Below the pieces are notes generated by a model that searched no databases, was not told where the DNA came from, and saw only the letters and a list, made by a program, of their open reading frames with translations. 52,690 bases of DNA from assembly GCA_037379885.1 (NCBI GenBank), contig JARRJC010000009.1, positions 1 through 52,690 on the forward strand, given 5' to 3'. Source of the DNA: Limibacillus sp. Lineage in GTDB: Bacteria; Pseudomonadota; Alphaproteobacteria; Kiloniellales; CECT-8803. Positions 1,677-35,515 of the stretch are shown piece after piece (positions within the stretch are counted from its first letter, which is position 1; each line of letters opens with the position of its first letter). A program made the position numbers and the translations under genes.

Positions 1677-2990
1677 ATGAAGCGAGCACCGGGTACAAAC
1701 CGCAACGGACTGATAGCCGCGCTGGACGTCGGCTCCAGCAAGGTCTGCTGCTTTATCGCCGAGCCGGGGGGCAACGGCGCGGTCCCTCGCGTGCTCGGCA
1801 TCGGCCAGCAGGCCAGCCGGGGCATCCGAAACGGCGCGATCGTGGACATGGAGGCCGCCGAGGCCGCCGTGCGCAACGCCGTGCATGCCGCCGAGCAGAT
1901 GGCCGGCGACACCATCGAGCGCGTCATCATCGCGCTTTCCGGCGGCAAGCCCGCATCCCGGCAGATCGCCATCGAAGTGGCGCTGGACGGCCAGCAGGTG
2001 AGCGAGCGGGATCTGCGCCGCGCCCTCTCCCTGGGCCGCGAGCCGACTTACCTCAACGGACACATCGGCGAAGGCCGGGAGCTGATCCATTCCATCCCGC
2101 TGGCCTATGCCGTGGACGGCAGCCGCGGGATCCGGGATCCGCGCGGCATGGTCGGCGAGCATCTGGCTGTCGATCTGCATCTGATCACAGCGACCTCCGG
2201 ACCCGTGCGCAACCTCGCCGGCTGCGTCGAGCGCAGCCATCTGGAGGTCGGCGGCTTCGTGATCTCGCCCTACGCTTCCGGTCTGTCGGCCCTGGTCGAG
2301 GACGAGCGGGAGCTCGGCGTCACCTTGATCGACATGGGCGGCGGCACGACCTCCATCGCCGTGTTCTTCGAGGGCAAGGCCATCCACACAGATGTGGTGC
2401 CGGTCGGCGGCATCCACGTCACGACGGACATCGCGCGCGGGCTTTCCACCCCCGTCGCGCACGCCGAGCGCATCAAGACGCTCTACGGCCACGCCATCGC
2501 ATCGAGCGGCGGCGACCGGGAAATGATCGACGTGCCCCAGGTCGGCGAGTACGACGAGGGCAGCGTGCAGCAGGTCCCGCGGTCCCTTCTGAACGGGATC
2601 ATCCAGCCGCGCCTGGAGGAAACCTTCGAACTGGTCCGCTCGCGCCTGGAGCAGAGCGGCATGTACCAAGTCGGCGGCCGCCGGGTGGTGCTGACGGGCG
2701 GCGCCTGTCAGCTGCCGGGCGTCCCGGACATGGCGTCGCTGATTCTAGACAGGAAGATCCGCATCGGCCGGCCCCAGGGCATTGGCGGATTGGCGGACTC
2801 CACGGCCGGCCCCGCCCACGCGGTCGCCGCCGGTCTTATCCGTTACGCCGTCGAAAGCGAACGCTCGATGGAGCCGCAGCCCGCGTCTCCGCCGGTCGTG
2901 CAGCAGACGAACGGTATGGGAGCCGACGAGGGAGCGGCTCTGCCCGGCTTTGTGGGCCGGTTGGGTCACTGGTTCCGGGAGCACTTTTAA
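1677..2990 (+). CDS. ftsA: Cell division protein FtsA
   Basis: FtsA is an actin-fold ATPase that anchors FtsZ to the inner membrane. The 437-residue product is of usual length. Phosphate-1 (AALDVGSSKVCC, about residues 14-25), phosphate-2 (LIDMGGGTTSIAVF) and the adenosine motif (VVLTGGACQLPG) are all visible, with the 1C-domain insertion typical of FtsA between the first two. The C-terminus ends in GFVGRLGHWFREHF, an amphipathic helix of the kind that serves as the membrane-targeting sequence. The start is an ATG shortly after a GGAGAGG-like ribosome binding site (AATGGAGAGGTAATGG). It is followed by a structured leader before ftsZ. Confidence 0.96.
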   Translation: MKRAPGTNRNGLIAALDVGSSKVCCFIAEPGGNGAVPRVLGIGQQASRGIRNGAIVDMEAAEAAVRNAVHAAEQMAGDTIERVIIALSGGKPASRQIAIEVALDGQQVSERDLRRALSLGREPTYLNGHIGEGRELIHSIPLAYAVDGSRGIRDPRGMVGEHLAVDLHLITATSGPVRNLAGCVERSHLEVGGFVISPYASGLSALVEDERELGVTLIDMGGGTTSIAVFFEGKAIHTDVVPVGGIHVTTDIARGLSTPVAHAERIKTLYGHAIASSGGDREMIDVPQVGEYDEGSVQQVPRSLLNGIIQPRLEETFELVRSRLEQSGMYQVGGRRVVLTGGACQLPGVPDMASLILDRKIRIGRPQGIGGLADSTAGPAHAVAAGLIRYAVESERSMEPQPASPPVVQQTNGMGADEGAALPGFVGRLGHWFREHF

Positions 2991-3067
2991 AGAGCGCGAT
3001 CAAGCGCCCGGAACCGAGAAGAGAAGCATTCGAGGAGGTCCCGCCTCGCGCCACGGGACGAAGCGAA

Positions 3068-3117
3068 GCCCGGTTAGAGACCACCGGGCATTTTAGGAGG
3101 CCCCGGACCCCCCGGGG
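3068..3117 (+). promoter_or_regulatory. Tandem hairpins in the ftsA-ftsZ leader
   Basis: Two GC-rich hairpins lie between ftsA and ftsZ. The first pairs GCCCGGT (3068-3074) with ACCGGGC (3083-3089) and is followed by ATTTTA, so it looks like a weak intrinsic terminator or attenuator. The second pairs CCCCGG (3101-3106) with CCGGGG (3112-3117) and ends just before the ftsZ Shine-Dalgarno at 3122-3128. The pairing is read directly from the sequence; any role in setting the FtsA:FtsZ ratio is inference. Confidence 0.45.
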
Positions 3118-3131
3118 GAATGGAGGAGAAA

Positions 3132-4940
3132 ATGCCGTTGAACCTTAGCGTCCCCAGTGACGAGAAAACGCACCTGAAGCCGCGTATCACGGTTGTCGGC
3201 GTCGGTGGCGCCGGCGGAAACGCCGTGAACAACATGATCACCAGCAAGCTTGAAGGCGTGGAGTTCGTGGTTGCGAACACCGACGCCCAGGCGCTGGAGC
3301 ATTCCCAGTGCGAGCGCCGCATCCAGCTCGGCCGGCACATCACCTCCGGCCTTGGCGCCGGGTCCCGCCCCGATGTCGGCCGGGCCGCCGCCGAGGAGGC
3401 GATGGACGACATCCTGGAGCATCTCGAAGGCTCCAACATGGTCTTCATCACCGCCGGCATGGGCGGAGGCACCGGCACCGGTGCTGCCCCGGTCATCGCC
3501 CGCGCGGCGCGCGAGCAGGGCATCCTGACCGTGGGCGTCGTGACCAAGCCCTTCCAGTTCGAGGGCATCCATCGCATGCGCATGGCCAGCAACGGCCTGG
3601 AGGAACTCCAGCAGTTCGTCGATACCCTGATCATCATCCCCAACCAGAACCTCTTCAGGGTCTGTGACGAGCGCACCACCTTCGCCGACGCCTTCAAGAT
3701 GGCCGACGACGTGCTGCACGCGGGCGTGCGCGGCGTGACCGACCTGATGGTCATGCCGGGCCTGATCAACCTGGACTTCGCCGACATCCGCACGGTCATG
3801 TCGGAGATGGGCAAGGCCATGATGGGCACCGGCGAGGCGGAAAGCGACGGCCGCGCCGTGGCCGCCGCGGAAGCCGCGATCTCCAACCCGCTTCTGGACG
3901 ATGTTTCGATGCGCGGCGCGCGCGGCGTGCTGATCAACATCACCGGCGGCATGGACATGACGCTGTTCGAGGTCGACGAGGCCGCCAACCGCATCCGCGA
4001 GGAAGTGGATCCGGAAGCCAACATCATCTTCGGCTCGACCTTCGATGAATCCATGAACGGCCTGATGCGGGTCTCCATCGTGGCGACCGGCATCGACGTG
4101 GAGGAGGGCGAGCGCCCGCAGCCGCTGACCCAGCCGGTCCGCACCGCGGCGATCGCATCGGCCAAGGCGGCCGAGGAACTGCGCCTGACCGCTGCTTCCG
4201 CTGCGCCGGAAGAGGAGGTCGAGGAGCTGGAAGTCGCCGAGATCGAGGAGACTCCCGTTGAGGATATCCCGGTCGAGGAGACCCCGGAGGAGCTTCCCGT
4301 CGCCGCCGAGCTCGAAGAGGCCGACGAAAGCGGTTTCGACGAGCGCGAGGAGTTCGATCAGGCGGTCGCCGCCTTCGAGGCGCGCCAGAACGGCGCCCGC
4401 GAAGCGACCGGCGGCAGCCAGGCCGGACCGGAACTCTCCGGCGAACCGCGCCGGGCCGTGCCGCGCATGGACGACGCCTTCATCCCGCCCGAGCCGGTCG
4501 AATCGCCGCGCCGTCCGGTGATGGAGCAGGCCGCCAAGCCTGAGCCCTTCGCCGAAGCGGCCATGACCAACGGCGGCGGGACCGGTAAGGGCCCCAAGGA
4601 AGCGCCGATCGCCAAGCGCAGCCGCAGCGCGACGCTGTTCGGTCTGATGACCGGCGCCGCCAAGGCCATCCACAACGCTGAGAAGAAGGTGGAGAAGACC
4701 GTCACCGGCGTTTCTGAGGACGCCAAGGCGCCGCAGGCCTCCGTCACCCGACGGGAGCCGCAGATCGAACGCCGGACCCAGCGCAGTGAGCCGGTGGCCG
4801 AGACGCCGAAGCCGGCGCGCCAGGAGGAGCCTGCCCAGCAGAGCCTCTCCGGCGTCGAGACCAAGGAGCGCAAGGCCGAGAGCGACATGGACGAGGATCT
4901 CTTCGAGATTCCGACCTTCCTGCGCCGCCAGGCCAACTGA
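3132..4940 (+). CDS. ftsZ: Cell division protein FtsZ, long-linker type
   Basis: FtsZ is the tubulin-like GTPase that polymerises into the Z ring. I start it at the ATG at 3132 (602 residues), 3-4 bases after a strong GGAGGAG; the ATG at 3120 lies upstream of that site. The GTP-binding tubulin signature GGGTGTG is at about residues 111-117, and the T7-loop region ([11 protein letters not shown]) is present. After the globular domain (about residue 315) comes a roughly 270-residue linker, first strongly acidic with repeated Glu-Glu/Pro runs, later mixed and basic. The end is [14 protein letters not shown], the conserved peptide that binds FtsA and other partners. Long linkers are known in Alphaproteobacteria. 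Identity is certain. Confidence 0.98.
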
Positions 4941-34267: not shown

Positions 34268-35281
34268 TTACTTCGCGGCGAGGCTGGAGATGTAGGAGCT
34301 GTCGATCAGCTCGTTCACCACCTGCTCGACGTTGACTTCCGGCTTCAGCACGCCGATCGACTGCAGGACCTTGCCGGTCTCGACGAAGGTCTGGCGGTGC
34401 TCCGGACCGACCACCGGGTTGGTGATGTCGGTGCGCTCGCCAAGCTGCTTGGCGGCGACCTCGTCGGTCAGGCGGGCGGCGTCAACCAGGGCGGCGCGCA
34501 GCTCTTCCGGGTGCTCGATGGAATAGCGGCGGGCCTTCTCGTAGACGCGCAGCACGCGGGTCACCAGATCGGGATGCTCGGCCGCGAACTCCTCACGCAC
34601 GTTCAGAATGCCGTAGGTGTTGTAGTCGGCATTGCGGAAGAAGAGACGCGAACCGCTCTCCAGCTCCGCTTTGGCCATGTGCGGGTCCAGACCGGCCCAG
34701 GCGTCAACCTGCCCCTTCTCCAGGGCGCGGTAGCCGTCGGGGTGCTGCAGCAGCACGGTCTCGATGTCGCCTTCCGAAAGGCCGGCATCGGCGAGAGCGC
34801 GAAGCAGGAAGATATGCGGGTCGGTGCCGCGGGTGACGGCGACGCGCTTGCCCTTCAAGTCCTCGACCTTGGTGATCTCCGAGTCCTTGGCGGTGACCAG
34901 GGCGGTCCACTCGGGCTTGGAGTAGACATAGACCGCCTTGATGGGGATGCCGTTCGCCCTGCCGACGACAGCGGCGGAGCCGGCCGTCGAGGCGAAGTCG
35001 GCGCTGCCGCCGTTCAGGAACTCCAGCGCCTTGTTGGAGCCGAGAGAGAGCAGCCAGCGGATCTCGATATCGTCCTTGGCGAACTCCTCTTCCAGCCAGC
35101 CCTTGTTCTTCAAGAGCAGGGCGACGGGGTTGTAGTAGGCGTAGTCGACCGTGACGGTGTCCGGCAGCTCCGCCGCCGCCGCCGTGCCCGGGGTGGCGCC
35201 GAGACCGACGCCGAGGGCGAGGCCCAGGCTGAGTGCGGTGCCGGAGACAAGCTTCAGAAAGCTTCGCTTGGTGGTGTTCAT
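34268..35281 (-). CDS. Sulfonate-type ABC substrate-binding protein (SsuA/NMT1-like)
   Basis: The periplasmic solute-binding protein is 337 residues from the ATG at 35281, which follows AAGGAAG by eight bases. The N-terminus is a signal peptide (KRSFLK, a hydrophobic stretch, then cleavage near TAAAA-ELP); KRSFLK is a weak Tat-like variant. The mature protein is SsuA/NMT1-like: TVTVDYAYYNPVALLLKN, then LKGKRVAVTRGTDPHIFL and LEKGQVDAWAGLDPH, which line the ligand cleft in this family. Ligands of relatives include alkylsulfonates, taurine, nitrate and thiamin precursors. A SAM-II riboswitch in its leader points to a sulfur- or methionine-related ligand. Confidence 0.9.
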   Translation of the reverse strand: MNTTKRSFLKLVSGTALSLGLALGVGLGATPGTAAAAELPDTVTVDYAYYNPVALLLKNKGWLEEEFAKDDIEIRWLLSLGSNKALEFLNGGSADFASTAGSAAVVGRANGIPIKAVYVYSKPEWTALVTAKDSEITKVEDLKGKRVAVTRGTDPHIFLLRALADAGLSEGDIETVLLQHPDGYRALEKGQVDAWAGLDPHMAKAELESGSRLFFRNADYNTYGILNVREEFAAEHPDLVTRVLRVYEKARRYSIEHPEELRAALVDAARLTDEVAAKQLGERTDITNPVVGPEHRQTFVETGKVLQSIGVLKPEVNVEQVVNELIDSSYISSLAAK

Positions 35282-35456: not shown

Positions 35457-35515
35457 CCCACTCGCTTTAGCAGAATTTATAAGGCGCCCTGCAAGCTGAG
35501 CCTCAAATCAGCGCC
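35457..35515 (-). promoter_or_regulatory. SAM-II riboswitch upstream of the ABC importer
   Basis: On the minus strand this shows the SAM-II consensus in order: P1 5' strand GGCGC (35515-35511), the conserved TGATTTG (35510-35504), GCTTGCAG (35496-35489), P1 3' strand GCGCC (35487-35483), an A/T-rich linker, and CTAAAG with the preceding G (35471-35465), then a CGAGT that can pair with GCTC in the first loop to form the pseudoknot. These blocks match the published alphaproteobacterial metA/metX SAM-II RNAs in sequence, order and spacing. SAM-II folds as an H-type pseudoknot that shuts expression when SAM binds. I recalled the consensus from memory; a covariance search would settle it. Confidence 0.88.

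Follow-up and report, generated by a model that had tools for sequence, protein, structure and literature searches.

The 52,690-nucleotide stretch of Limibacillus sp. DNA analyzed here (the window) carries on its minus strand a SAM-II riboswitch that most likely regulates, by transcription attenuation, an ABC importer taking up an organic sulfur source. The element is predicted to be an OFF switch, with SAM very probably shutting importer transcription. SAM control of the importer is well supported by comparative sequence evidence, and a putative attenuation platform between aptamer and operon, in which one RNA strand is shared by competing helices in modeled folds, is the strongest mechanistic evidence for the switch.

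The aptamer and its two helices are the following.

35524-35446, minus strand: SAM-II (SAM_alpha, RF00521) aptamer, covariance-model match, Rfam 15.
35515-35483, minus strand: P1 hairpin, GGCGCU (35515-35510) pairing with GGCGCC (35488-35483), from the Rfam alignment and a fold.
35501-35460, minus strand: P2 pseudoknot, GCUC (35501-35498) and GC (35496-35495) pairing with GAGU (35463-35460) and GC (35465-35464).

The original prediction listed a complete and ordered set of SAM-II blocks and proposed an Infernal search with RF00521 as a check, and on both points it holds. GATTTG (35509-35504), GCTTGC (35496-35491), the P1-closing GGCGCC, and GCTAAA (35471-35466) are found on the minus strand, the GATTTG, GCTTGC, and GCTAAA blocks in the order and spacing of the SAM-II core, with GATTTG and GCTTGC in the P1 loop. 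The cmscan match covers the full length of the model (1-79 of 79) at 36.5 bits, just 0.5 bit above the gathering threshold of 36, with an E-value of 1.1e-4 over the window and 1.3e-6 over 601 bases. The interval first proposed, 35515-35457, spans P1 to slightly beyond the pseudoknot strand. The P2 duplex in the window is calculated at -5.2 kcal/mol. Over 58 distinct SAM-II sequences, its mean is -4.73 versus -3.85 with shuffled partners (0 of 1000 shuffles as low), while the same shuffle within 17 importer-type sequences, with 40 of 1000 as low, is a weak test; these partner-shuffle tests, like those of the antiterminator and terminator below, ignore relatedness and are based on predicted structures. 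Judged by these features, the leader element is a genuine SAM-II riboswitch, and SAM binding is predicted. One family of five importer aptamers in relatives has GCTTTG in place of GATTTG, which alters an A that is invariant among aligned SAM-II sequences and possibly affects ligand recognition.

A marginal Rfam score would be compatible with a SAM-II-like sequence that arose by chance or is decaying without function. This candidate was considered and, at a vanishingly small probability, rejected on conservation: position, core, and platform are maintained before all close homologues of the importer in the order and beyond it. A protein search across 61 genomes of the order found 10 that encode a close binding-protein homologue, and SAM-II precedes the binding-protein gene in every one of them, 120-185 nt from the coding start. 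The marginal score is no sign of chance because the aptamer stands before all 10 of these homologues, eight of which have aptamers that fall below the Rfam cut-off, scoring 34.8 bits or less (two of the eight are unlisted even at an E-value of 0.5). The cut-off would thus detect SAM-II in only two of the 10. Most SAM-II copies before this importer lie below it and are likely to stay unannotated.

Beyond the order, SAM-II is present at 20 of 80 wider loci from a species-genome scan, all of them in Alphaproteobacteria where the records give names; the regular-expression reading of these loci was checked and extended with a covariance model (R1). The comparison of related genomes that had been proposed came out in favor of the pairing, the same importer following SAM-II in the order and at part of the wider loci. 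In a tree built from 87 binding proteins, SAM-II occurs in early- as well as late-branching lineages of the alphaproteobacterial portion and in 15 of the 19 members of the window's clade, and the trait needs 11 changes. We read this pattern as a probable old association of SAM-II and importer with repeated losses, a history that the tree does not settle. At 14 loci whose homologues lack SAM-II (cyanobacteria, Geobacteraceae, Anoxybacillus, and others), an Rfam search found no other known riboswitch. Weak partial SAM-II matches of 15 and 20 bits lie where an aptamer would be expected upstream of the binding-protein gene at two loci (L172, 4771-4812, and L188, 1034-1056) and are possibly decayed aptamers.

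Downstream of GCUAAA the leader reads GCGAGUGGGUAGGACCCGCCGCAAAAAGCUGUGCCGGGUCUUUUUUU, and here two further helices, overlooked in the original prediction at 35465-35419 of the minus strand, form a candidate expression platform.

35465-35444, minus strand: antiterminator hairpin, GCGAGUGGGU (35465-35456) pairing with ACCCGCCGC (35452-35444), one A bulged.
35453-35419, minus strand: intrinsic terminator, stem 35453-35426, followed by a U-tract of seven U (35425-35419).

The antiterminator folds at -13.8 kcal/mol (z -3.5) and the terminator at -15.4 kcal/mol (z -3.4, energy-based fold). The 3' half of P2, GCGAGU, whose partner GCUC-A-GC lies in the aptamer loop, consists of the same bases that stand within GCGAGUGGGU as the antiterminator 5' strand, and ACCCGCCGC, the antiterminator 3' strand, supplies most of the terminator 5' arm. 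P2, antiterminator, and terminator are thus a chain of three mutually exclusive helices. In folds of truncated leaders, the antiterminator is present before the terminator 3' arm is made. For the complete leader, the calculated energies put the terminator ahead even in the absence of SAM, which means that antiterminator action has to be kinetic. With a minimum-energy z-score of -0.15, the leader as a whole is unremarkable, and this value was excluded from the evidence, as was a computed gene-placement probability that disregards relatedness.

The platform is conserved along with the aptamer. A terminator was identified in 20 importer leaders, an antiterminator-type alternative pairing is possible in each, and this pairing is maintained across 18 distinct leaders. 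Antiterminator and terminator pairings persist despite sequence changes, with 0 of 1000 partner shuffles as stable. In a SAR116 leader (L129), CCCGC has become CCCAC with matching changes and both helices are retained, as they are in a leader (L121) whose sequence differs throughout. The terminator is weak or not recognized in a few importer leaders, from Azospirillum and relatives and from Xanthobacteraceae, so the platform is not universal.

These helices suggest a mechanism. At low SAM, the nascent leader would fold the antiterminator, GCGAGUGGGU with ACCCGCCGC, RNA polymerase would read through, and the importer would be made. At high SAM, the ligand would stabilize the P2 pseudoknot, which would capture the GCGAGU strand and block the antiterminator; the GACCCG strand would be released to pair with CGGGUC, the terminator would form, and transcription in the cell would end at the U-tract ~135 nt ahead of the start codon. 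The earlier expectation that the importer is shut when SAM is high is consistent with the conserved linkage and with the terminator and antiterminator, both read from sequence. The strand-sharing switch is testable by a handful of mutations.

The terminator might instead be constitutive and limit transcription whatever the SAM level, with SAM affecting translation or a small RNA derived from the leader. A partial precedent is found in the accessible text on Sinorhizobium meliloti (PMC9373788), in which no SAM response was predicted for the terminator downstream of the metA SAM-II and the terminated metA leaders are small RNAs; in the window, the terminator is already part of the minimum-energy structure of the complete leader. 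Such an arrangement is nonetheless improbable here, since the P2 strand is itself the antiterminator strand in the window and the alternative pairing recurs in the 18 distinct leaders. Direct action on translation would also have to reach far downstream: the ribosome-binding site lies ~165 nt past the pseudoknot strand, beyond the reach of direct masking. Attenuation governed by SAM remains the preferred account of the leader, whose outer signals are the following.

35553-35524, minus strand: probable promoter read from the sequence, TTGACA (35553-35548), an 18 nt spacer, and a -10-like TTATAT (35529-35524).
35295-35288, minus strand: likely ribosome-binding site AAGGAAGA, before the ATG at 35281, read from the sequence.

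A plausible promoter directly before the aptamer was part of the original prediction. Its two elements can be read in the window, and TTGACA-like elements occur in the same place upstream of the aptamer in relatives, although the promoter falls below the threshold of a consensus scan, which accepted neither a promoter nor a terminator in the window leader because its rules are strict.

The operon behind the leader consists of three genes.

35281-34268, minus strand: substrate-binding protein of the SsuA family, 337 aa (TIGR01728 and NMT1, PF09084).
34240-33368, minus strand: ABC permease (BPD_transp_1); the best NCBIfam model is SsuC at 175.7 bits, below its cut-off of 347.
33375-32638, minus strand: ABC ATPase (ABC_tran), reaching no NCBIfam cut-off among those shown.

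The permease and ATPase genes share 8 bases, the start of the latter lying within the end of the former. The riboswitch was expected to head an SsuABC- or TauABC-like importer, and an importer of the SsuABC kind does follow it: the binding protein scores 250.1 bits against the broad SsuA family model TIGR01728 (cut-off 163.5), and permease and ATPase follow. The type is assigned at this broad level, since the narrower models stay below their cut-offs, with 113.1 bits against PRK11553 SsuA (cut-off 299), 53.5 bits against the TauA equivalog (cut-off 304.25), and SsuC as given above. The operon contains binding protein, permease, and ATPase only, and no desulfonating enzyme, SsuD, or SsuE was found in it. 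The single LLM gene detected elsewhere in the genome is interrupted by a scaffold gap, and neither of the resulting fragments matches an SsuD model. The ATPase gene is followed on the same strand by a methyltransferase-like gene (PF13578; 31698-32462, minus strand); in one relative (G001), a VTT-domain gene takes its place.

In many relatives, at 13 loci and others, the ATPase gene is followed by an OsmC-family gene (PF02566) belonging to a single subfamily (MNADELRxLQAPLK...). The window's operon is without it, and a similar OsmC gene lies on another contig (C97) of the same genome. This subfamily is distinct from the OsmC-like gene found immediately after SAM-II in six relatives, which is a surprising SAM-II target with a parallel in osmC of Pelagibacter.

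The binding proteins themselves suggest that the cargo, or the way it is held, differs from that of SsuA. Among 89 aligned sequences, a set of residues unlike those of E. coli SsuA is invariant or near-invariant: D46, A48, Y50, N51, P52, G81-S-N-K, Y118, Y120-S, P123-E-W, T150, and G152-T-D. At the position of the Gln in the SsuA "GYQ" motif, the binding protein of the window has Ala48, and every one of the 89 sequences has Ala. In both TauA (Gln30) and SsuA, a Gln reportedly coordinates the sulfonate (PMC6906117), and we infer from the alignment that the "GYQ" Gln is this residue. The importer clade is likely to bind a different ligand, or to hold its ligand differently. The closest solved structures include sulfonate- and taurine-binding proteins, the best matches being 2x26 (E 3.9e-24) and 3e4r (6.1e-18). 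The genes around homologues (tauD, betC, ssuD, sfnB, OsmC) suggest that the sulfur source is organic: the homologue adjoins tauABC-betC-tauD in Azospirillum, has an LLM oxidoreductase, ssuD, and a pair of sfnB genes nearby in Rhizobium etli, and lies near LLM and aminoacylase genes and an amino-acid importer in Agrobacterium vitis.

SAM-II alone indicates sulfur or methionine supply, not which compound is carried. The cargo could be methionine or a close derivative, the importer standing in for MetNIQ, which would leave the switch mechanism unchanged. Consistent with this are the control shared with metY and metN-like genes, the Ala where the probable sulfonate Gln sits, and the finding that the MetQ lipoprotein (PF03180) has no match in the window's genome. 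This cargo is rather unlikely, however, given the SsuA-family similarity, the nearest solved structures, and the desulfonation or sulfatase genes near homologues; moreover, two genomes (G011 and G027) each have this importer together with a SAM-II-linked metN-like gene. An organosulfur compound feeding cysteine, methionine, and SAM is the favored cargo. The earlier claim of a compound that feeds methionine or SAM accords with the conserved linkage of a sulfur importer to SAM-II; the broad family assignment and the invariant Ala do not single out which compound. As a tentative proposal, the clade may be a separate binding-protein subfamily (invariant D-x-A-x-Y, then NPV, GSNK, YSKPEW, TRGTD) for organosulfur compounds other than plain alkanesulfonates, ancestrally SAM-II-controlled in Alphaproteobacteria and often accompanied by an OsmC-family protein, a SAM-gated sulfur-scavenging module. 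The riboswitch provides a physiological clue, sulfur or methionine supply, for a clade called "aliphatic sulfonate" by the broad model only.

The rest of the 3.1 Mb genome contains a single other SAM-II match, at 28.9 bits and below the cut-off, which precedes an alpha/beta hydrolase gene and then metY (O-acetylhomoserine sulfhydrylase). Because there is only this one other match, the SAM-II regulon of the genome likely comprises the metY locus and this importer. The hydrolase gene (2295-3191, minus strand, of locus L032) sits between SAM-II and metY. In relatives, SAM-II stands before genes for siroheme synthase (cysG) and PAPS reductase (cysH), placing sulfate assimilation under SAM-II (loci of this type number seven and three), and before metN-like genes at three loci; for the cysG, cysH, and metN-like assignments, one example per type was checked by profile.

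Known SAM-II systems share the switch and differ in the target. SAM-II was described before methionine and SAM synthesis genes, with terminators noted (Corbino 2005, PMC1273637). In the accessible text of Leyn 2014 (PMC4239095), SAM_alpha is confined to Rhizobiales and Rhodobacterales; metY is its sole core target, hom, metA, metX, metC, and metW are further targets, and no importer is named. The metA, metX, and metY/metZ SAM-II elements of Alphaproteobacteria likewise have the same core, P1 and P2 pseudoknot, a promoter just upstream, and in many a terminator; their targets are methionine genes, whereas the window switch targets an ABC importer. For S. meliloti metZ, SAM binding is predicted in the accessible text to form a Rho-independent terminator (PMC9373788), a terminating platform like the present one with a different downstream gene. 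A 2025 survey (PMC12452182), as far as its accessible text goes, includes SAM riboswitches in the tandem arrangements that precede ssuABC in Bacillota. There a SAM-family riboswitch precedes COG0715, COG1116, and COG0600 genes, as here, but in tandem, in another phylum, and with SAM classes pooled, so that SAM-II is not named for these genes in that text. Pelagibacter osmC is under SAM-riboswitch control, and sulfur limitation induces it strongly (PMC5069961). The SAM-V/SAM-II bhmT-osmC locus shares with the present system SAM-riboswitch control of a sulfur-limitation locus with an OsmC-family gene; its enzymes differ, and the riboswitch-controlled genes named include no importer. E. coli SsuABC and Xanthomonas citri SsuA resemble the window importer at the family level, and the window operon differs in having no SsuD, in the Ala at the sulfonate Gln, and in scoring below the narrower cut-offs. 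In the open-access literature, SAM-II paired with this importer in Alphaproteobacteria was not found described; subscription journals or databases may differ. What is new here is the importer as a target, the riboswitch class being a known one, and SAM-II regulation is thereby widened from methionine synthesis to the uptake of sulfur sources, in lineages for which the accessible text of Leyn 2014 reports no SAM_alpha.
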